DNA from: Candidatus Heimdallarchaeota archaeon
Lineage (GTDB): Archaea > Asgardarchaeota > Heimdallarchaeia > Heimdallarchaeales > Kariarchaeaceae
Assembly (NCBI GenBank): GCA_021399405.1
Contig: JAAFKL010000437.1
Span: 1-11,457 of the forward strand
Direction of reading: 5' to 3'
Length of the DNA: 11,457 bases
Below are positions 1 to 11,457 of this stretch, piece after piece. Below the pieces are notes generated by a model. That model did not search any database. It worked only from the letters and a program-made list of their open reading frames with translations, and was not told the origin of the DNA. Positions within the stretch are counted from its first letter, which is position 1, and each line of letters begins with the position of its first letter. The translations under genes were made by a program, and so were the position numbers.

Positions 1-1188
1 AAATATGCTCACTGGCTGGGAGATGATTTTAATACTATTCGAGAATTTGAATTTCAGCTTGTTAACCTTGATGCAGACTCTGAACTTGAAATATTGTACT
101 CTCGGTTCTTCTGGTATTTCGGATGGCCAATTTCTCAACTAACTTCATTGGATGGCGATGGAACAATTATAAAGACACAATATTTACCATTTGGAAAGGA
201 TCTAGTCTTCAATGTTGGTGATATTGACGGTGTTGGTACATCTACGGAAATTATCCTTGCTGTTAAATATTTCTTCAATCCATCAATTGCAATCCTAGCT
301 GTATTCGATAACAATTTTGGTCTGAAGGATGGTGTGGCACCAGTTATTCTCAATGGTATGTTCCCGATTACAGAAATCGCAGTTGGAGATTTTGATGAGA
401 CCACAACAGGAGAAGAGTTCATCTATTTCTTTGAAATGGCCGAGCTTAATCTTCCAGAGATCATTTACAATCTGATTGGGTTCCCAACATTGTTTATACA
501 ATTCGGATGGAACAATGCTTTCAATAGTAATTATACTATTCCATTGGATTTTGATAATATTATTGGTATCGCTCCTACAGGTGAACCTACCGTGAACTAT
601 TGGGTAGAGGTTGCAAAAGATGTTGATGGTACAGCTGGTAACGACATTACTTATCTAGTCATTGAATCCCGTACCGGAGATCTATTCAATTATGACTTCA
701 GTGCATCTGGAGTATTAATGACCCATACCGGAATAATTAGAGATAGTGCTATTCCATATGCAAAGACATCGTTTGTTACAGGAACCTTCGAGGGATGTGG
801 AACCAATTCGTTCATTACCTTAACTGCAGCAAATTCAATTTCATGTTATTATAATAATGATGGAAGTCTAAACTTCACCTCTCCAATAGAAGCATGGAGT
901 CGAACATTGGAATTCGATGTAATACAAGATATGATAGTTGCAGATCTTGATGATGATGGAATTGATGATCTACTGATTGCTAGTTTTAGTGGATACGTTT
1001 GGGTAACAAGGAGTAATCCGCCACCACAACCATTGTTGCAACTAAGTGCAGATAGTCTGTTGACTGAAAATATCCCCAGTTCTGTAGAAAATGATACACC
1101 AACACCCCTCATTATACTCGGTTTTGGTACATCTTTTATGACCGGATTATTGGTTATATTGAAGAAAAAGAAGATACTACCTCTCTAA
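1..1188 (+). CDS. FG-GAP/VCBS-like surface protein with C-terminal membrane anchor (5' end outside window)
   Basis: The frame is open from base 1, so the true start lies upstream; 395 residues are visible. Acidic loop repeats of the FG-GAP/VCBS type recur: NLDADSE (visible residues 22-28), GDIDG (73-77), GDFDE, KDVDG, and the best one, DLDDDGIDD (315-323), which looks like a Ca-binding loop. Each is followed by a short hydrophobic beta strand, as in integrin-like beta-propeller blades. The protein ends in a hydrophobic helix (about residues 368-387) followed by KKKK and a short tail, so the propeller should lie outside the cell and be held by a C-terminal anchor. The family points to adhesion or ligand binding, but no specific partner can be read from the sequence. 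The downstream neighbours are on the opposite strand, so it ends its own transcription unit. The propeller assignment is fairly sure; the function is unknown. Confidence 0.72.
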   Translation, partial: KYAHWLGDDFNTIREFEFQLVNLDADSELEILYSRFFWYFGWPISQLTSLDGDGTIIKTQYLPFGKDLVFNVGDIDGVGTSTEIILAVKYFFNPSIAILAVFDNNFGLKDGVAPVILNGMFPITEIAVGDFDETTTGEEFIYFFEMAELNLPEIIYNLIGFPTLFIQFGWNNAFNSNYTIPLDFDNIIGIAPTGEPTVNYWVEVAKDVDGTAGNDITYLVIESRTGDLFNYDFSASGVLMTHTGIIRDSAIPYAKTSFVTGTFEGCGTNSFITLTAANSISCYYNNDGSLNFTSPIEAWSRTLEFDVIQDMIVADLDDDGIDDLLIASFSGYVWVTRSNPPPQPLLQLSADSLLTENIPSSVENDTPTPLIILGFGTSFMTGLLVILKKKKILPL

Positions 1189-1271: not shown

Positions 1272-1391
1272 TTATTCCAGAAGATACCTGATAAGGTCAT
1301 CCAAAAACCAATTTAATACTCCCTTATTCATTTCTTTTGTGCTTTTAAGTGCAGCAATTCTGGTTTTGATTAGAAAACTTATTCGGTTATA
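1272..1391 (-). pseudogene. Relic of the 3' end of a response-regulator paralogue
   Basis: Bases 1271-1390 align without gaps to 2241-2360, the 3' end of the intact response-regulator gene, with about 95 of 120 bases identical by hand count. Translated leftward, the relic matches residues 379-417 of that protein at 32 of 39 positions and ends at the same stop codon. About 14 of the 25 base differences are silent, so both copies diverged while still coding. Upstream the similarity ends abruptly: the reading frame meets a TAG two codons before the first matching residue, and the vapC stop lies 8 bp away. There is no usable start and no receiver domain, so the piece cannot encode the protein. 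It is either the remnant of a former paralogue or the displaced 3' end of the intact gene after an insertion. Confidence 0.8.
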
Positions 1392-1398
1392 TAACTAA

Positions 1399-1833
1399 TT
1401 ATAGAATGATTAATTGAACATCAAAACCCTGTTTATTTTGTTCTTTTAAAATTTCTTTCTCTGATTTGAAAAGAACAGGAATATTGTATTTTTTGGCGAT
1501 AGCCAAGCTAAAGCAATCTGAAATAGATATAGCATATTGACATTTGAATGCTCCAGCTTCTCTCCATATCTCTTCGGAGGGGATGATTCGGCAAATGATT
1601 TTGATATCCTCAACAAACTCAGTTGCTATCTCTTGAGAGAAATTTCTGCAAAGTATGTAGTAAAGTTCAGTAATCGAATAATTATGAATAAGTATTTTGT
1701 TAATTTTATGATTCTCTAAGATATTTACGTTGAATATCCCACCTAATTCAGATTTGAGAAAAAATTCTATGAAAAGACCTGTGTCAACTACAACTGGTCC
1801 TGAGTATGAGGTTAGATCATTAATACCGCTCAA
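1399..1833 (-). CDS. vapC: PIN-domain ribonuclease, VapC-like toxin
   Basis: This 144-residue protein has the PIN-domain layout of a metal-dependent RNase. The first acidic residue is in VVVDTGLFIEFF (D17), the second in YSITELYYIL (E56) and the third in SISDCFSLAIAKKYNIPV (D106). The fourth position, usually Asp after a short strand, looks like E125 in FKSEKE. Length and motif spacing are normal for VapC toxins, which cleave RNA and are held inactive by the partner antitoxin. The likely start is TTG at 1833, with a GGGAGAG stretch about 8 nt upstream; no in-frame ATG lies near it. The gene overlaps the 3' end of the antitoxin gene by 14 bp, so translation is probably coupled. The PIN call is secure; the toxin role follows from the pairing. 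Confidence 0.85.
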   Translation of the reverse strand: MSGINDLTSYSGPVVVDTGLFIEFFLKSELGGIFNVNILENHKINKILIHNYSITELYYILCRNFSQEIATEFVEDIKIICRIIPSEEIWREAGAFKCQYAISISDCFSLAIAKKYNIPVLFKSEKEILKEQNKQGFDVQLIIL

Positions 1834-2056
1834 GATTCCGACTCTCCCGCAGCTGCGAAGAAATATCCTTTCCTTCTAATAATCCATAATATTTCTTTGA
1901 AAAATCTAGTCGATCAATCATGCTGAACTGAAAATCATCGATTAGTCTACGAATGATATCCTCATAGGTTAGTCTCTTACCGGATTCCTTTTGGAAATTT
2001 GCCATAAGATTGAGTAATTCCCTCTTTACCTTGTCAGATATTTGGATAGTAGTCAT
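1820..2056 (-). CDS. vapB: VapB-like antitoxin
   Basis: This 78-residue protein starts MTTIQISDKVKRELLNLM, a strand-then-helix pattern typical of the short N-terminal DNA-binding region of archaeal VapB-type antitoxins. A helix with TYEDIIRRLIDDF follows (about residues 30-43). The last 30 residues are charged and carry a KKYYGLLEGKD segment, as expected of a toxin-binding tail. It precedes the PIN gene and overlaps it by 14 bp, the usual antitoxin-toxin order. The ATG at 2056 follows directly on an array of three TATAGT repeats and has no Shine-Dalgarno sequence, which suggests a leaderless transcript. The fold could be ribbon-helix-helix or AbrB-like; ribbon-helix-helix seems likelier, but this was not tested. 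Confidence 0.75.
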   Translation of the reverse strand: MTTIQISDKVKRELLNLMANFQKESGKRLTYEDIIRRLIDDFQFSMIDRLDFSKKYYGLLEGKDISSQLRESRNLERY

Positions 2057-2058
2057 TC

Positions 2059-2087
2059 TATAGTGCTTATAGTCGCTATAGTATATG
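2059..2087 (-). promoter_or_regulatory. vapBC promoter with three 9-bp-period operator repeats
   Basis: On the plus strand TATAGT occurs at 2059-2064, 2068-2073 and 2077-2082, exactly 9 bp apart (ACTATA on the coding strand). The distal copy merges into an A/T box (ATATACTATA, about 2078-2087) centred about 26 bp upstream of the antitoxin ATG, the right place for an archaeal TATA box on a leaderless transcript. Two further copies lie between that box and the ATG. A protein bound to the array would block the TATA-binding protein, so VapB or VapBC autorepression is the obvious inference. Confidence 0.55.
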
Positions 2088-2241
2088 AGATTTTTCTCTA
2101 GAAATGAATATTTTTTCTATATTTTCAATTTTTCCATAGCAATTGTAATAGATCCAGTTAATGTATTAATTAATCGCAATATCAGGTAATTTAATTGTTA
2201 TTAGTCTCTGAAAATATGGGGTTTAAAATTAAGCTAACCCA

Positions 2242-3495
2242 TTATTCCAGAAGATACTGGATAAGATCATCCAAAATCCGATTCAAAACACCTTTATTAA
2301 CATCAGAAGTGCTTTTGAGGGCAGTAATTCGGGTTTTAATTAGAAAGCTGATCCGATTATAATCTGATACTATACGCTCAGCCACATCTGTAAAGTAAAT
2401 ACAAATCAGAATTAAGTCATCTTCAATTTTTGCCGCATATACAAGTGATGAAACCTTAATTTCGGAAGTGACGGGTAAGGGTCCAAACAATCCTTCCTGG
2501 AAATTTTCTCCTTGACCAACCAAAGTGAAGAAAAAGATTGAATTCCTCATATATTCAACTTCAGTGAGAAGATGTTCATTCAGCTTAGCAACGACATCTG
2601 GTCCATGATGAGTGACGTTCAATGCTGCAAGAGATATCCCAGATGAATATTCATCATAACTAGAAGCTGCTTTAGGTACTGTAGTAACTTTACCTTCTTC
2701 AGGTACAACAAGTTCTGGTAGTCCTATTTTCTCAGGAGCTAGATATTCGAAAAGATGAGCTAATTGTCGTTTAGAAGACATAGTATTAATTGCATTAACA
2801 AATAAATTTGAAATAAACTCGTCTGAATAAAGAAATTGGAGTTCGAACTGCAAATCAACAACAATTTGTTTTAACACATTGATTACAGTTTCTTCAGTGT
2901 GTACTCCCCAAAGTGCAGGATCTATGTTTATTGTTCTATCAAATGTGTCTATCTTCAACATGCCTTGACTAGTTTTCTGGATATCTTCCAAGATAGTGGA
3001 GGCTTGTTGTTCTATTACATGTCTAAGAGTAGATGAAGTATGTGCAGCTAATTCTTCCAAGAATACGGTGATAATATTTGATGCAACACCGATTGTAGAA
3101 ATATCTTCAACACTCTGGGGCTCTATATCATCAGCTATCTTATTTAGTAATCCCACCAGCCTTTCTTTAGACACCGGTTTTTGCATGAAATCAATGGCTC
3201 CTAAGCGCAAAGCTGCGGATATTGCTTCACTCTGGGCGATACCTGATAACATGATAACTTTGATATCTGTTTTACGTTCATTTAATTTTTCGAGTAATTC
3301 CAATCCTGTAATATTTGGAAGAATTATATCGAGAAATAGGACATCCGGATTCAGAAATTGTGAGTTATCCAGGAATTCCTGTCCTTCTTCGAATGATGCT
3401 ATGACTTGATGACCAGACTCCTTAATCATTCGTGAAACGGTCTCTCGAACGAAAAGGCTATCGTCAATAATTACGCATCCAAGACTCTCAGCCAC
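2242..3495 (-). CDS. Response regulator: receiver domain with a novel C-terminal output region
   Basis: This 417-residue protein starts with a CheY-like receiver domain (about 6-122). Its acidic pair is D11/D12 in VIIDDS, the phospho-acceptor D56 is in LFLDIILP, the switch residue S84 is in VIMLSG, and K106 is in MQKPVS, so all catalytic positions are present. The remaining 290 residues contain no helix-turn-helix, kinase, GGDEF or methylesterase motif. A helical middle (about 135-265) leads, through a short linker, to a mixed alpha/beta region (285-417) that starts with a beta hairpin. GLFGPLPV, then LVYAAKIEDDLILICIYF, then a long C-terminal helix suggest a profilin-like (longin/roadblock) fold, but this is inference from pattern only. 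The start is GTG at 3495. No histidine kinase gene is adjacent. The gene is transcribed away from the divergent GTPase gene, and its 3' end is duplicated at 1272-1391. Confidence 0.85.
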   Translation of the reverse strand: MAESLGCVIIDDSLFVRETVSRMIKESGHQVIASFEEGQEFLDNSQFLNPDVLFLDIILPNITGLELLEKLNERKTDIKVIMLSGIAQSEAISAALRLGAIDFMQKPVSKERLVGLLNKIADDIEPQSVEDISTIGVASNIITVFLEELAAHTSSTLRHVIEQQASTILEDIQKTSQGMLKIDTFDRTINIDPALWGVHTEETVINVLKQIVVDLQFELQFLYSDEFISNLFVNAINTMSSKRQLAHLFEYLAPEKIGLPELVVPEEGKVTTVPKAASSYDEYSSGISLAALNVTHHGPDVVAKLNEHLLTEVEYMRNSIFFFTLVGQGENFQEGLFGPLPVTSEIKVSSLVYAAKIEDDLILICIYFTDVAERIVSDYNRISFLIKTRITALKSTSDVNKGVLNRILDDLIQYLLE

Positions 3496-3728: not shown

Positions 3729-5321
3729 ATGAAATTTTTGTCTCCAGAAGCAGATTATGGTAATATTGAGTACAAACTTACGTTGAGTCATCATCTGGAT
3801 AATGTGAGTAGAATCGAGGAATTAGCCTCACAAATGAGATTTCGATTGTATGAGGGTAATGGTGAGGCATTCTACTATATAGGAGTTGAAGATGATGGCA
3901 CTCCTACAGGTATTTCTGATGAGGAGCTAGAAAAGAGTCTGGCATCTCTTGAAAAAGTAGCTTCTTTGGCAAAAGCAAAAGTCATGTTGCTAAGAAAAGA
4001 AAGAGGTAACGAGGGGCTGATTTCTGAGTTACTGATAAGAAGAGAGAAGGATCCGGAAGAACTACCTGCCGATATAAGAATAGCAAGTGTGGGAAATGTT
4101 GATGCTGGTAAGTCTTCGTTAATTGGTGTTTTGCTAAAGGGTACATTGGACGATGGCAGAGGATCTGCTCGGAGTTTGGTGTTTAGGTATTTACATGAGT
4201 TAGAATCAGGAAGAACATCCTCGGTTAGTACCACAGTGATTGGATATGATATTAATGGTGAAGTGGTCAATCAAGATAACATTCATCCTCCGACTGATAT
4301 TGAATTATTAGAACGCTCTATCAAAACGGTTACCTTTCACGACTTAGCTGGTCATGAGAAATATCTAAAAACGACAATTTTTGGATTAACAGGATTAACT
4401 CCAGAGTTTGCCATGTTGATCGTAGCAGCAAATCAAGGTGTTCTTCAGATGACAAAGGAACATCTAGGGCTATTGATAAGCTTAAAGATTCCATTTTTCA
4501 TTGTACTAACAAAAATAGATTTGGCACCAGAAAACATAACAAAACAAACAAGGCAGGAACTTACCAAGCTACTAAAAATACCTGGAGTATCAAAAGTCTC
4601 TTTCAATGTAAAATCCAAGGATGACGTTGTTATTGCTGCCTTGAACATATCAAATAAATCGATTGTTCCAATATTCTCTATCAGTTCGGTTACTGGGGTG
4701 GGTGTTGATTATTTGCAGCTTTTCCTTCAATTACTTCCAGCTAAACGAATTGAAGAAGCTGATCAGGATCTAGAATTCCGAGCGTATATTGATGACATCT
4801 ACCATGTAACTGGTGTAGGTACTGTAGTCGCAGCAATGGTGTATTCAGGCACAATAAGTACTCAAGAGAATGTGCACCTTGGTCCATTTAATGACGGATC
4901 TTTCCGAGAAGTGCGTTTGAAATCAATTCATTACAAACGAGTGCCCACTAGTAGTATTTATTCAGGATTAAATGCCACATTCGCTTTGCATAACATCCAT
5001 AGAGAGCAGGTGAGAAAAGGGATGGTTCTAGTTTCTAAAACTGAGTTTCAGAATAAAGCATTTTTTGAATTTGAAGCCGAAATTTATGTCCTTTATCATT
5101 CAACTACTATTCGTCAAGGTTATTCCCCAGTGATACATTGCAGAAGTATAAGACAAAGTGCTCAAATGGTGCAGATTGATTCACCATCAATTAGAACTGG
5201 TGATAGGGCAAAAGTAATTTTTAGGTTCCTATATCGCCCAGAATATATTCGTGCTGGTCAAAGAATTGTTTTCCGAGAGGGACGAACAAAAGGATTGGGC
5301 ATAATAACTGATATACGGTAG
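3729..5321 (+). CDS. GTPBP1/GTPBP2-like translational GTPase (EF-1alpha superfamily)
   Basis: All five G motifs are present in this 530-residue protein: the P-loop GNVDAGKSS (122-130), the switch I Thr within SGRTSSVSTT, DLAGHEKYLKTT from residue 205, TKID (261-264) and SSVTG (319-323). Around them are signatures specific to the GTPBP1 family: DDGRGSAR after the P-loop, an F-R-x-L-H-E-x-ESGRTSSV stretch, and MTKEHLGL. The N-terminal 115 residues match the family-specific extension (RLYEGNGEAFYYIGVEDDG). Two beta-barrel domains follow the G domain (about 355-440 and 445-530), as in EF-1alpha. The length is complete for an archaeal member. Eukaryotic relatives are linked to mRNA turnover and ribosome rescue; the archaeal role is not established and could be an elongation-factor-like or surveillance function. 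It is monocistronic, divergent from the response regulator. The family call is very sure. Confidence 0.95.
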   Translation: MKFLSPEADYGNIEYKLTLSHHLDNVSRIEELASQMRFRLYEGNGEAFYYIGVEDDGTPTGISDEELEKSLASLEKVASLAKAKVMLLRKERGNEGLISELLIRREKDPEELPADIRIASVGNVDAGKSSLIGVLLKGTLDDGRGSARSLVFRYLHELESGRTSSVSTTVIGYDINGEVVNQDNIHPPTDIELLERSIKTVTFHDLAGHEKYLKTTIFGLTGLTPEFAMLIVAANQGVLQMTKEHLGLLISLKIPFFIVLTKIDLAPENITKQTRQELTKLLKIPGVSKVSFNVKSKDDVVIAALNISNKSIVPIFSISSVTGVGVDYLQLFLQLLPAKRIEEADQDLEFRAYIDDIYHVTGVGTVVAAMVYSGTISTQENVHLGPFNDGSFREVRLKSIHYKRVPTSSIYSGLNATFALHNIHREQVRKGMVLVSKTEFQNKAFFEFEAEIYVLYHSTTIRQGYSPVIHCRSIRQSAQMVQIDSPSIRTGDRAKVIFRFLYRPEYIRAGQRIVFREGRTKGLGIITDIR

Positions 5322-5461: not shown

Positions 5462-6337
5462 ATGAAACGTGGCTTAATGAAATTAACTGGAATATTGCTT
5501 ATGTTTAATTTAATGATCAGCGGAGGATCAGGACAAGAATTTGTAGGTGATTACAATATCTACTATAGTGATAAATTAAAAACAGATATGGGATTTACAT
5601 GGGAGATCATAAAATTTGATTTTATCCTCCCTCCACCTCCTGAGGGAGAGATAATGCCACCTTCCACCACAACTATCACAGGCTCAGATGGAGAAACTAC
5701 AACCGTTGTGGTTGAAACAACTACTGCTTTTGACGAGATTGATATTCCAGATATCAAACCTGGGACACTATACACAGTTAAATTGCTTAAGGATCTTGGT
5801 GGTTTATCACAAAAAATGTATTGGGAAGATTATAATACTAACCAAGATGAATATTTTCAGGTTTCTTTTTCCGATCCCGATATTGATACTTGGTCAGGTA
5901 ATTTTGGTCCTGAAGGGTTTATCGAACCAAATACTATTCGTTTTGAAAATGGTACAGAGTTAAATTTCTTTGAATATCGAATAGATCTGATAGAAACCCT
6001 AGAAGGAGAGCTTCCAGATGATTTTGAATTTGGATATAAGATTGAAAATGGTGTTTACTTTGAGAAAACTAATTATTCCTCTTATCAAGATGTGGTGCAA
6101 ATGGAATCACAGATCGATGTTGATACGGGGATTTTATTGTATCTTTCCTTATATCAAAATATTACAGGTTTTACCTCAGATGTCGAAATGAGGCTTGATC
6201 ACGTTGTAGGGATTGATATCAATACTTTCAATGGAAATGGGAATCCAACTTTAAGTGTACCATTATCTCCTATTTTTGTCTATTCGATAATTATCTTACC
6301 AATCATAATTGGCAGAATAAGAAAGCAAGTGAACTAA
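5462..6337 (+). CDS. Secreted Thr-rich-linker protein with C-terminal anchor, paralogue A
   Basis: This 291-residue protein belongs to a family of four in this window; I do not recognise it beyond that. A signal peptide (residues 1-24) ends before Gln25, with no lipobox Cys. Conserved blocks follow: YYSDKLKTDMGFTWEI (34-49), a Pro-rich then Thr-rich linker (56-89), GTLYTVKLLKDLGGLSQ (101-117), FENGTELNFFEYRI (161-174) with an N-glycosylation sequon, a KIENGV block near 193, and IDVDTGILLYLSL (218-230). The end is tripartite: NPTLSVP (261-267), a short hydrophobic span (268-284) and a basic cluster GRIRKQ. This resembles archaeal sorting/anchor tails, so the body should face outward. Its signal peptide and leader resemble gene C more than B or D. 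It converges on the MFS gene with a 41-bp gap. The role is unknown. Confidence 0.85.
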   Translation: MKRGLMKLTGILLMFNLMISGGSGQEFVGDYNIYYSDKLKTDMGFTWEIIKFDFILPPPPEGEIMPPSTTTITGSDGETTTVVVETTTAFDEIDIPDIKPGTLYTVKLLKDLGGLSQKMYWEDYNTNQDEYFQVSFSDPDIDTWSGNFGPEGFIEPNTIRFENGTELNFFEYRIDLIETLEGELPDDFEFGYKIENGVYFEKTNYSSYQDVVQMESQIDVDTGILLYLSLYQNITGFTSDVEMRLDHVVGIDINTFNGNGNPTLSVPLSPIFVYSIIILPIIIGRIRKQVN

Positions 6338-8416: not shown

Positions 8417-9388
8417 ATGAGATTAGCTAAAATTAACATATTTTTCGCAGTTATGATAATCTGTTTATTCGCAGGATCGACATTTGCCCAGTCAGATGAT
8501 TACTACTATGAATCTGAAATCAAATACTCAGATAAACTCAAAGCAGGAATGGAATTTACCTGGGAGATTTCAAAATATAGTGTTGAAATCCCTTCGGACA
8601 AATTAGGTCTTGATCAAGCAGCTACTACGGTGACATCAACAGTAGATGAAACGACTTATGTTACCACCACTGCCCCACCAGAGACTTCAACTACCGTGTA
8701 CACTAGCTATGAAACAACGACTTGGGATGATTCAACAACAACAACATACACCGAGGACATATCATATCCTAATTTTCCAGATATTGCAGTCGGTACAACA
8801 ATTACAATAAAATTGTTAAAGGATTTATCAAACTTCACTCAATACTATTTTACCGATAATTCTGACTACGACGATTATCAGACATATGTAGATAGCTTCT
8901 TTGAGATGTCATACTCAGCTGGAACTCAAGAGGAGATGAAGAATTTTATACCTGCAGAAGCCTTAATTGGGCCAAACACTGTTGTATTTGAAAACGGAAC
9001 AGTCATGAACTTATTTGAATTACAAGTACTAGAATATGAACGATATCAAGATGAATATGAGGATGAAGATTCTAGTTCAACATTTGAGGTAAAAGATGGT
9101 ATAGCCATCCAAACCGAATCATACAATGATCCAGATAGGAATGAAACTTCTTCATTAAATATTCAGTATGATATCGACACTGGACTATTGGTGTATGTAT
9201 ATTCTGAACTTAGAGAGAGCGATACACATTTTGAGATTGAGGTTAAATTACAAAGTAGTGAAGGTCTTGATGTTAACAATTTAGTGGCTAATGATGACCC
9301 AACATTATCGGTTCCAATCTCTGCAATATATGTATATACCCTTATTCTGGTTCCTATTGTAGTAAACAGGATTAGAAAAAAAAAATAG
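8417..9388 (+). CDS. Secreted Thr-rich-linker protein with C-terminal anchor, paralogue B
   Basis: This is the longest complete family member (323 residues). The signal peptide (1-24) ends in STFA before Gln25. The block YSDKLKAGMEFTWEIS (37-52) is followed by the longest Thr/Ser linker in the family (about 69-113), rich in Thr pairs and triplets, likely extended and O-glycosylated. Next come GTTITIKLLKDLSNFTQ (126-142), FENGTVMNLFEL (191-202), an acidic stretch (211-220), EVKDGIAIQ (224-232) and YDIDTGLLVYVYSEL (251-265). The tail is ANDDPTLSVP (291-300), a hydrophobic span (301-316) and RIRKKK. Its body resembles paralogue D (LSNF; EEMKNFIP against EEAMKGFLP), while its tail is closest to C. 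The gene ends in a run of ten A's. It is monocistronic with its own promoter, and its role is unknown. Confidence 0.85.
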   Translation: MRLAKINIFFAVMIICLFAGSTFAQSDDYYYESEIKYSDKLKAGMEFTWEISKYSVEIPSDKLGLDQAATTVTSTVDETTYVTTTAPPETSTTVYTSYETTTWDDSTTTTYTEDISYPNFPDIAVGTTITIKLLKDLSNFTQYYFTDNSDYDDYQTYVDSFFEMSYSAGTQEEMKNFIPAEALIGPNTVVFENGTVMNLFELQVLEYERYQDEYEDEDSSSTFEVKDGIAIQTESYNDPDRNETSSLNIQYDIDTGLLVYVYSELRESDTHFEIEVKLQSSEGLDVNNLVANDDPTLSVPISAIYVYTLILVPIVVNRIRKKK

Positions 9389-9517: not shown

Positions 9518-10474
9518 ATGAAAAACAATTTTGCAAAATTCATTGGTATTTTTATAATGATCAATTTAATGATAAGTGGTGTGTCAAGCCAAGAATATGT
9601 TAACGATGATGATATATATTATAGTCAAAAATTAAAAGCAGGAATGGAATTTACTTGGGAATTTGTGCGATTTAATTTTGAACTTAACAATACGCAAGGC
9701 GATTCCCCTGCTTTGGATCAAGCCAGCACATCTACAACTGCTGTGACATCCTCCGTAATCGATGAAACCTCAACTATTACTATCACAGCCACAACAACCT
9801 CCCCAGTAACAAGCTCAGACGATGTAACCGTTACCGAAACTGAAACTGTTTCAGATCAAGAGTTTCCGGAGATTCCTCCTGGTTCAAAATATACTTTAAA
9901 ACTCCTCAAAGATTTGGGTGATTTGTCCCAGGAAGAATACTGGGACACATATGAAACGGATGTAAATGAATATTATGATGGCAGTTTTAACGATCCAAAT
10001 TTGAACGATGAAGAGTTTTTTGGAGGTTTAGATCCCTTCATCTTTCCTTCTGAGATTAGATTTTCAAATGGAACTGAGCTAAATTATTTTCAATATTCTA
10101 TAGAAGAGAGACAACGTCAAATGGAGGAATATTCTGAAGACTATACTGATGATAGTCCTTTTGGATCTGAAGAATATTATATTCAAGATGGAATTGCAAT
10201 AGAGAAAATTGATTTTTCTGAAGAGAATATGACATTTATTGTAGAGCAAAGAGCTGATATTGATACTGGGGTTCTGCTGTATTTATCATTGGTTCAGGAA
10301 TTCGATGAACTCAAAGTTGATCTATTAATTGTACTTGATCAAACTGAAGGAATTGACATAGACACAGTAATTGCAAATGATGATCCTACACTAAGTGTCC
10401 CAATTTCAGCAATATTTGTCTATACCCTTATTCTGATCCCTATAATAGTAAATAGAATTAGAAAGAAAAACTAA
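9518..10474 (+). CDS. Secreted Thr-rich-linker protein with C-terminal anchor, paralogue C
   Basis: This 318-residue paralogue has a signal peptide almost matching that of gene A (NLMISG near residues 16-21, then S-x-QE), with Gln25 as the likely mature N-terminus. It carries YYSQKLKAGMEFTWEF (34-49), a Thr/Ser linker (70-112), KYTLKLLKDLGDLSQ (124-138), FSNGTELNYFQYSIE (182-196) with the conserved NGT sequon, an acidic stretch (202-219), YIQDGIAIEK (221-230) and ADIDTGVLLYLSL (246-258). The tail ANDDPTLSVP (286-295), hydrophobic span (296-312) and RIRKKN nearly match paralogue B. The expected topology is signal peptide, exposed ectodomain on a glycosylated-looking stalk, and one C-terminal membrane pass. 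No catalytic motif is visible. It has its own promoter 129 bp downstream of gene B. Confidence 0.85.
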   Translation: MKNNFAKFIGIFIMINLMISGVSSQEYVNDDDIYYSQKLKAGMEFTWEFVRFNFELNNTQGDSPALDQASTSTTAVTSSVIDETSTITITATTTSPVTSSDDVTVTETETVSDQEFPEIPPGSKYTLKLLKDLGDLSQEEYWDTYETDVNEYYDGSFNDPNLNDEEFFGGLDPFIFPSEIRFSNGTELNYFQYSIEERQRQMEEYSEDYTDDSPFGSEEYYIQDGIAIEKIDFSEENMTFIVEQRADIDTGVLLYLSLVQEFDELKVDLLIVLDQTEGIDIDTVIANDDPTLSVPISAIFVYTLILIPIIVNRIRKKN

Positions 10475-10630: not shown

Positions 10631-11457
10631 ATGCATTTAAAGATAAAGCTATATATAATTTTTATATTACTAAATTTAACCGTAAGTGGATCGATGGCCC
10701 AAAGTGACCCATATTATGAATTACCCGAATATCGATACTCTGATCAATTAGTAACTGGGGTGGAATTCACTTGGGAGATTTCAAAGCTTAAGATGGAATT
10801 AAACTCAGATGCCACTTTGAGTGATGATGATAGCCTTGAAGATATTCGTGCAGGAATGAGTATGACAGTCAAGATTATTCAAGATTTATCTAATTTTAAT
10901 TTGACAGATTTCTATGCTGCATTGGCAAACAATACGAATGACGGCATTGACAATTATTTCTCCTTTTTTGAAATTTATTATGCAGATTATTTTGAAATAT
11001 CCTATTCAGAAGACGACGAAGAAGCTATGAAGGGTTTTCTTCCAATTCAAATACTGATTTCTCAAAATACCATTGAATATCCAAATGGAACTGTTATCAA
11101 TACCTACGAACTTGCCTATGAGCAATTTCAACAAAGAGAAGATACATATTTCGATGAATTGGAAGAGGCTGGAATAAGCTCAACTTACGAAATTAAAGGT
11201 GGAATTGCAATTCAAAAACAACAATTTGATCAGACAGAAGATGGTTTTTCAGGTATTAGCGAGACTCGATTTGATATTGATTCTGGAGTTCTTATTTATT
11301 TGAATAGTAATGTGCAAGATGAAGATGGAGACTTTGAGCTCGAATTTCGATTAAAGAACTCAAAAGGAATTGAGATCAATACAATAGTTCCAAATGACGA
11401 TCCGACTTTGTCAATTCCATTCTCAGCTACATTTGTTTTTGCTTTGCTTCTAATCCC
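10631..11457 (+). CDS. Secreted protein of the same family, paralogue D (3' end outside window)
   Basis: The frame is open from ATG 10631 to the window end, giving 275 codons with no stop. The signal peptide (about 1-23) ends in SMA before Gln24. It carries the family blocks YSDQLVTGVEFTWEIS, MTVKIIQDLSNF, YPNGTVINTYEL with the conserved sequon, YEIKGGIAIQKQQF, FDIDSGVLIYL, and NDDPTLSIPFS followed by the start of the hydrophobic anchor; only the last few residues and basic cluster should be missing. Unlike A, B and C it has no Thr-rich linker: the WEIS block reaches the TVKI block through about 25 acidic residues. It also has an insertion rich in Tyr and Phe after LSNF (about 95-118). It resembles paralogue B most. 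The role is unknown. Confidence 0.82.
   Translation, partial: MHLKIKLYIIFILLNLTVSGSMAQSDPYYELPEYRYSDQLVTGVEFTWEISKLKMELNSDATLSDDDSLEDIRAGMSMTVKIIQDLSNFNLTDFYAALANNTNDGIDNYFSFFEIYYADYFEISYSEDDEEAMKGFLPIQILISQNTIEYPNGTVINTYELAYEQFQQREDTYFDELEEAGISSTYEIKGGIAIQKQQFDQTEDGFSGISETRFDIDSGVLIYLNSNVQDEDGDFELEFRLKNSKGIEINTIVPNDDPTLSIPFSATFVFALLLI

Follow-up and report, generated by a model that had tools for sequence, protein, structure and literature searches.

How does a toxin–antitoxin (TA) module without transposase or integrase of its own enter a chromosome? To our knowledge this is an open question, and it is raised by a locus of the Asgard archaeon Candidatus Heimdallarchaeota archaeon (contig JAAFKL010000437.1), of which 11,457 nt were analysed (hereafter the window; it is an 11.4 kb contig without any N). 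On the minus strand, a response regulator gene (3495-2242) is followed by a 185-base spacer, a vapB-like gene (2056-1820), a vapC-like gene (1833-1399), 7 bases and a relic (1391-1272), in which the 39 terminal codons and the stop codon of the regulator gene occur a second time, in diverged form and without the rest of the gene; behind the relic come an AT-rich spacer and the 3' end of a convergent plus-strand gene (1-1188). What the window shows directly is a TA pair framed by two copies that diverged as coding sequences do; the relic lacks a gene body, and no integrase was found among the proteins scanned. On balance, we think it somewhat probable that the resident gene received at its 3' end, through the homologous recombination of the host, a fragment made of the gene end of a related lineage (39 codons) plus vapBC. 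By analogy with the bacterial loci described below, this suggests that TA pairs can enter genomes by ordinary recombination, bringing a relative's copy of the neighbouring gene end with them.

The copy attached to the gene (2242-2361, minus strand), which encodes the last helices of the C-terminal longin-like domain, and the relic (1272-1391, same strand) align without gap, 95 of the 120 bases being identical. The widest gap-free match (1270-1391 against 2240-2361) covers 122 bases at 79.5% identity, with a blastn E-value of 6e-26 in the first 4 kb; the probability of the match is about 2e-31 by composition alone, and about 3e-23 after multiplication by all position pairs. Read in the frame of the gene, the copies share 32 of 39 residues and the terminal TAA. 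The 40 codons, stop included, comprise 19 identical ones, 14 silently changed and 7 with a residue change, and the 25 base differences are distributed 7/2/16 over codon positions 1/2/3. By the Nei–Gojobori method, Ks is 1.05 and Ka 0.114 (Ka/Ks 0.11). The relic contains neither an in-frame stop before its own TAA nor an indel. No gene body precedes it: a TAG stop (1397-1395) lies two codons upstream, and 7 bases separate the vapC stop (1401-1399) from the match. There, the match starts abruptly at regulator codon 379, which defines the breakpoint where vapC-side DNA meets the relic (1391/1392). This is the only clear breakpoint because the other edge, just beyond the stop codon, is where a match would fade anyway once diverged non-coding DNA begins. 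The copies differ throughout, with at most 18 identical bases in a row, at the stop-codon end and not at the breakpoint, and no short identical attachment core was found at both ends. The original prediction, made from the sequence alone, had claimed a gap-free 120-bp match of about 79% with a shared stop codon, 32 of 39 identical residues with mostly silent change, and a vapBC pair filling most of the 970 bp in between; all of this was borne out, with 14 of the 21 changed codons silent and 658 of the 970 bases occupied by vapB and vapC. As a minor point, a GTT-to-ATG difference in the relic opens a 19-codon frame (1272-1331) in the reading frame of the gene, probably by chance.

The distribution of the differences bears on the history of the copies. 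The decay of initially identical copies was simulated under 42 parameter settings, with 3000 runs each: with a similar total of differences, 0 or 1 of 3000 runs per setting reached the observed 14 silent and 7 replacement codons. The third-position share of the differences also departs from the decay null (P = 0.0067). Decay of an initially identical copy thus fits the window poorly, and the earlier claim that both copies evolved as coding sequence before one of them became a relic is supported. In a rejection simulation where a coding phase was followed by a free phase (253 of 60000 runs accepted), the part of the time since separation that falls after loss of function had a median of about 10%, with a 95% range of 0.5-48%.

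The pair between the copies is a predicted vapBC-like module. The VapC-like protein (1399-1833, minus strand, 144 aa, TTG start) is a PIN-domain protein (PF01850, E 6e-12, over the cut-off). Directly upstream and overlapping it by 14 bases is a 78-aa frame (1820-2056, minus strand), whose match to VAPB_antitox (PF02697, E 0.0066) is weak and under the curated cut-off. As in type II VapBC modules, a PIN toxin gene stands behind a small antitoxin gene in an overlapping frame; the window module differs by the weak match of its antitoxin to the known family and by being framed by two versions of the end of a neighbouring gene. The spacer between the regulator stop and vapB (2057-2241, 25% GC) contains, just before the vapB start, the repeats CTATAG / CTATAAG / CTATAG (2058-2081), spotted by eye, a possible candidate for an autoregulation operator. 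Two relatives of VapC were detected (82% and 68% identity, on contigs of 1449 and 908 bases), both of which keep D17, E56, D106 and the C-terminus; there was no match in the plasmids and phages searched. The VapC search, which reached relatives down to 68%, gave no match on contigs of 60635, 8998 and 19300 bases, the sizes of three relatives with a complete regulator end. This suggests that vapBC is missing beside those three ends, contig size being a weak proxy that unpredicted small genes would escape. No integrase was found among 10 window proteins compared with Pfam, or 5 with NCBIfam, the other open reading frames being only listed.

The gene that provides both copies (2242-3495, minus strand, 417 aa, GTG start) is a Kariarchaeaceae-type response regulator with a receiver domain (Pfam Response_reg, E 3e-25), a helical middle and a longin-like C-terminal domain; its relatives at 72-86% identity are named Heimdallarchaeota or Kariarchaeaceae, LC_2 standing at 72%, which probably places the contig in this Asgard group. 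The C-terminal domain (residues 286-417), modelled with a pLDDT of 90, is made of two strands, a helix, three strands and terminal helices. In Foldseek its best match was a Lokiarchaeota longin domain (E 0.004), followed by weaker ones to FLCN/Lst4-type longins, none reaching E 0.001; receiver domains dominated the matches of the full-length structure. Judging from the model, the regulator would join a bacterial-type receiver to a longin-like domain of the trafficking type. The 39 residues of the relic were placed in a family tree of 27 sequences (P0026 was left out). The relic falls beside the window gene (P0001), P0004 or P0005, or on their inner branches, with differences below 1.5 log units, and the next-best placements are worse by at least 6.9 log units. 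By its sequence it groups with the window gene and its two closest relatives, in the gene's own young clade; with this placement and the Ka/Ks of 0.11, the two copies are related as alleles of two lineages are. Comparison of the regulator with P0005 (216 of 262 residues identical in the body, 33 of 39 in the end) gives, at that resolution, no sign of a foreign origin of its own C-terminus. A 138-aa C-terminal query was meant to connect the regulator with the VapC contigs; its one match was an LC_2-type fragment on a contig other than these. Scanning genome contigs with the regulator returned three bacterial loci only, with receiver-domain similarity, and scans of viral contigs with the regulator and VapC alignments returned no relative.

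How could such an arrangement be produced? The donor fragment would consist of the last 39 codons of the response regulator gene of a related lineage, followed by vapBC. Either it would circularise and integrate by one crossover in the gene end, or it would be joined by homology at one end and by an illegitimate event at the other. The single crossover of a circle would yield the order gene, TA module, second gene end, and then the DNA that used to lie downstream: one copy would complete the gene and the other, past vapC, would be the relic, beyond which the original spacer and the convergent neighbour would come. The AT-rich segment between the relic and the open reading frame at 1-1188 (1189-1271, about 10% GC, with T-runs on the minus strand) may be read as this original downstream region. 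No recombinase of the module's own would be needed, and addiction, i.e. the poisoning of cells that lose the module, would retain a structure otherwise open to removal by the reverse crossover. We infer here the donor, whether the route was circular or linear, which of the copies came from outside, and the retention by addiction.

The finding is a variation on processes already known. Circularisation of a fragment by ligation with single-crossover integration, and a one-ended alternative, are described in Escherichia coli (PMC3240628). In such homology-facilitated illegitimate recombination and single-crossover integration, too, homology anchors the incoming fragment, and the single crossover of a circle would directly give repeat, cargo, repeat; the work differs in concerning an experimental E. 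coli plasmid system, the abstract of which does not mention TA modules. In Helicobacter, an event with one homologous and one non-homologous junction is reported to have left a 1577-bp duplication around the insert (PMC4615327). Incoming effector-immunity modules are proposed to displace T6SS effector genes in Vibrio cholerae (PMC5361080): there also a toxin/immunity pair is thought to enter by homology at one end, with the displaced part of the old gene behind it, but both the anchor and the part left behind come from the toxin system itself, whereas in the window they come from an unrelated host gene. Among titles and abstract openings, a scope outside which most subscription papers lie, we found no description of such gene-end copies flanking TA modules.

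The question whether the structure recurs was addressed in Nitrospirota, with a partly exploratory survey of PIN-domain loci from 61 genomes, to which ParE loci and, as controls, GNAT acetyltransferase loci were added (genomes and loci are designated G and L). The loci were the best-scoring matches plus hand picks from lists, a non-random sample, and gene calls were open reading frames. A tight criterion (blastn E of 1e-5 or better, at least 40 bases, a copy close to the toxin on its upstream and on its downstream side) was fixed after a first look at these loci. Loci with too little flank were dropped (1 of 90 PIN, 1 of 30 GNAT, 1 of 30 ParE and 2 of 40 second-batch PIN loci). Tight repeats were found at 19/89 PIN and 7/29 ParE loci of the first batch, against 1/29 controls, and at 2/38 PIN, 3/20 ParE and 0/20 control loci of the second. 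The pooled frequencies are 21/127 for PIN and 10/49 for ParE, i.e. 31/176 TA loci versus 1/49 controls (Fisher P = 0.0044). A third PIN set, from more contiguous genomes and with five further loci excluded as places already counted, had repeats at 3 of 22 loci, with identities of 71-76% only. When the tight geometry was not demanded, a flanking repeat was present at 21/89 PIN loci versus 11/180 shifted positions. The bacterial repeats measure 41-352 bp and are located at gene ends, either 3' or 5'; in the first screen, the 20 pairs had no similarity from locus to locus and therefore look like host DNA, not like the ends of one element. All 31 tight pairs show some divergence, though perfect repeats, when long, can be lost in assembly. 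The structure recurs in contigs of about 0.2-1 Mb, and four tight cases come from the same genome, G044 (L024, L063, L073 and L087). What links the window to the bacterial pattern is a likeness of structure and of divergence, not descent.

Some loci of the survey were peculiar. The single control match, L123, is an acetyltransferase gene inside a 109-bp direct repeat of 74% identity. In L050 and L014 a short repeat occurs at least three times, and between its copies lie what look like TA or small-gene units, as if modules had been taken up there repeatedly. A short stretch of L024 (2110-2190) is found again elsewhere in 20 of the 59 G044-genus genomes that were searched, over lengths down to about 30-45 bases and with an identity of up to 97%; it is perhaps a dispersed REP-like element.

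Codon positions could be analysed in 20 of the 31 TA cases, those where one copy belongs to a neighbouring frame of at least 100 aa that extends beyond the copy. The pooled differences were 91/72/199 over codon positions 1/2/3: 199 of 362 at third positions, when 154 were expected from a per-case decay null (P = 1.5e-6). Taken singly, 8 of the 20 were below 0.05 for third-position excess, and the five with at least 94% identity gave 2/1/22. The pooled pattern rejects decay of identical copies.

Two loci were worked out further; of the others, L028 had no second genome in its genus, and a search with L024 returned gene matches. In L087, a PIN-toxin unit is flanked by a crcB gene (Pfam E 2e-28) and, on its other side, by a second copy of the final 290 bases of this gene, which reads 95 residues in frame to its stop. 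Empty sites exist in G067 and G109, two of the seven relatives with both flanks on the fetched locus: they have one copy of the gene end, followed by the downstream DNA at nearly the same spacing (within about 4 bases). In the crcB tree, which omits the loci of 10 of 29 relatives that had no gene-end match, both L087 copies join the gene ends of two sister species, G099 and G078, in one supported clade, and they are about as distant from each other as these two gene ends are. In L238, from G037, 283 bases spanning the end of the tex gene recur behind a parDE unit. The tex-parDE-fragment layout is present in three genomes, G037, G068 and, as far as its contig goes, G080. The fragment is absent behind tex-parDE in G044 (where tex and ParE were confirmed by Pfam) and G065; G066 and G079 match the parDE unit of L238 in part, and 23 of 30 loci, including that of G099, have tex and no parDE match. 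G089 and G084 carry a partial second tex end further downstream, without match to the L238 unit. In the tex tree (L319 left out, the partial second copies of L306 and L322 unused), the two readable fragments form their own clade inside the gene-end clade. The fragments of G037 and G068 differ by 4/4/18 over codon positions.

These parallels help to weigh the other explanations of the window. The original prediction had offered two models. One was a tandem paralogue of the regulator downstream, all but the last 39 codons of which were removed by the insertion or deletion that brought vapBC. It would account for the coding-type divergence and for the missing body at the relic, in a family that has many divergent members. 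We consider it rather unlikely: it requires a duplication, a deletion and an insertion; the relic falls inside the gene's closest clade, so that the duplication would be young; the longest contigs of the 28 family matches are all of different size, hence no tandem pair is visible; and both worked bacterial parallels show single genes in relatives. The other model, a mobile unit bringing its own gene end, is the better of the two, since bacterial TA modules are also framed in this way and relatives of two worked loci have an empty site. What did not stand is the likeness to classical integrative elements that came with it. Integrative elements that displace gene 3' ends leave the order restored gene end, cargo, displaced end, and this order is that of the window. 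A site-specific element that aimed an integrase, since lost or acting in trans, at the 3' end of the gene and brought its own 3' end is nevertheless quite improbable, the unit being 1 kb long, with neither an integrase among the proteins scanned nor an identical core at the breakpoint, and the repeats of the bacterial set being of variable length, at either gene end and, in the first screen, specific to each locus.

Identical copies at the start are what a long target duplication would imply, the module having duplicated 120 bp of its target as it inserted, with subsequent decay of the outer copy, evenly over codon positions. Restriction-modification systems are reported to insert with target duplications that are long and variable (PMC3031569, citing Nobusato 2000). 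They have in common with the window an addiction-type gene pair and long direct repeats of target DNA; there the repeats are read as duplicated target, whereas those of the window differ as two coding alleles do. With decay from identical copies rejected in the window and in the pooled bacterial cases, and no perfect pair among the 31 (with the reservation made above on assembly), such a duplication is very unlikely here. Hardly more probable is an assembly artefact, in which the alleles of two co-occurring strains, with and without vapBC, were placed in succession: the window is a single short contig and its copies do resemble alleles of two lineages, but it has no N, the vapC end, the 7-base join and the relic are continuous, and the structure recurs in far longer contigs (the four G044 cases) and in two or three genomes at one site.

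Several observations weigh against the capture of a related lineage's gene end by homologous recombination. An empty site and a donor-like arrangement are seen in the two bacterial parallels; for the window, the one Asgard example, it is contig sizes that hint at an empty site. The bacterial sample is modest and non-random, its control is small, and many of its genomes are fragmented, probably metagenome assemblies. By itself, the second batch was not significant (5/58 versus 0/20, P = 0.32), with a low PIN rate. Twelve of the 20 codon-position cases are singly compatible with decay, and L005, L055, L072, L148 and L239 are below the null mean. At crcB, the other five of the seven relatives with both flanks carry other DNA at the site, and in neither the crcB nor the tex tree are the fragments clearly alleles of any sampled species. 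Finally, the tex fragments, which probably go back to an old insertion, still differ mainly at third positions, something that simple loss of function does not explain. A single event does not account for such coding-type divergence between fragments that probably share one insertion; exchange that took place repeatedly, or excision with re-entry, would.

A wider view would make TA modules of Asgard archaea and bacteria widespread recombinase-free integrative cassettes, which travel with the end of a neighbouring gene, are recombined in by the host and are protected by the lethality of the reverse crossover. On this view, cycles of excision and re-entry could maintain selection on both gene ends, which would explain why even spare fragments, such as those of G037 and G068, evolve as coding sequence does. 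The generalisation is possible, though we hold it only tentatively and think it doubtful as it stands. If recurrent, the scar of two coding alleles around a TA pair would be a readable record of entry (site, donor lineage and age), and would make the idea of homologous insertion stabilised by addiction directly testable.

As for the rest of the window, the convergent neighbour (1-1188, plus strand), cut by the window start, encodes an FG-GAP-like protein (weak Pfam FG-GAP_3 match, below the cut-off). On the other side, divergent from the regulator gene, lies a gene for an EF-1A/SelB-like GTPase (3729-5321) with an extra N-terminal region, below all the NCBIfam cut-offs shown. Further on, four related proteins without Pfam match are encoded nearly in a row (5462-6337, 8417-9388, 9518-10474 and 10631-11455), interrupted by an MFS-like gene; they share DNA blocks, the repeats D1-D6.

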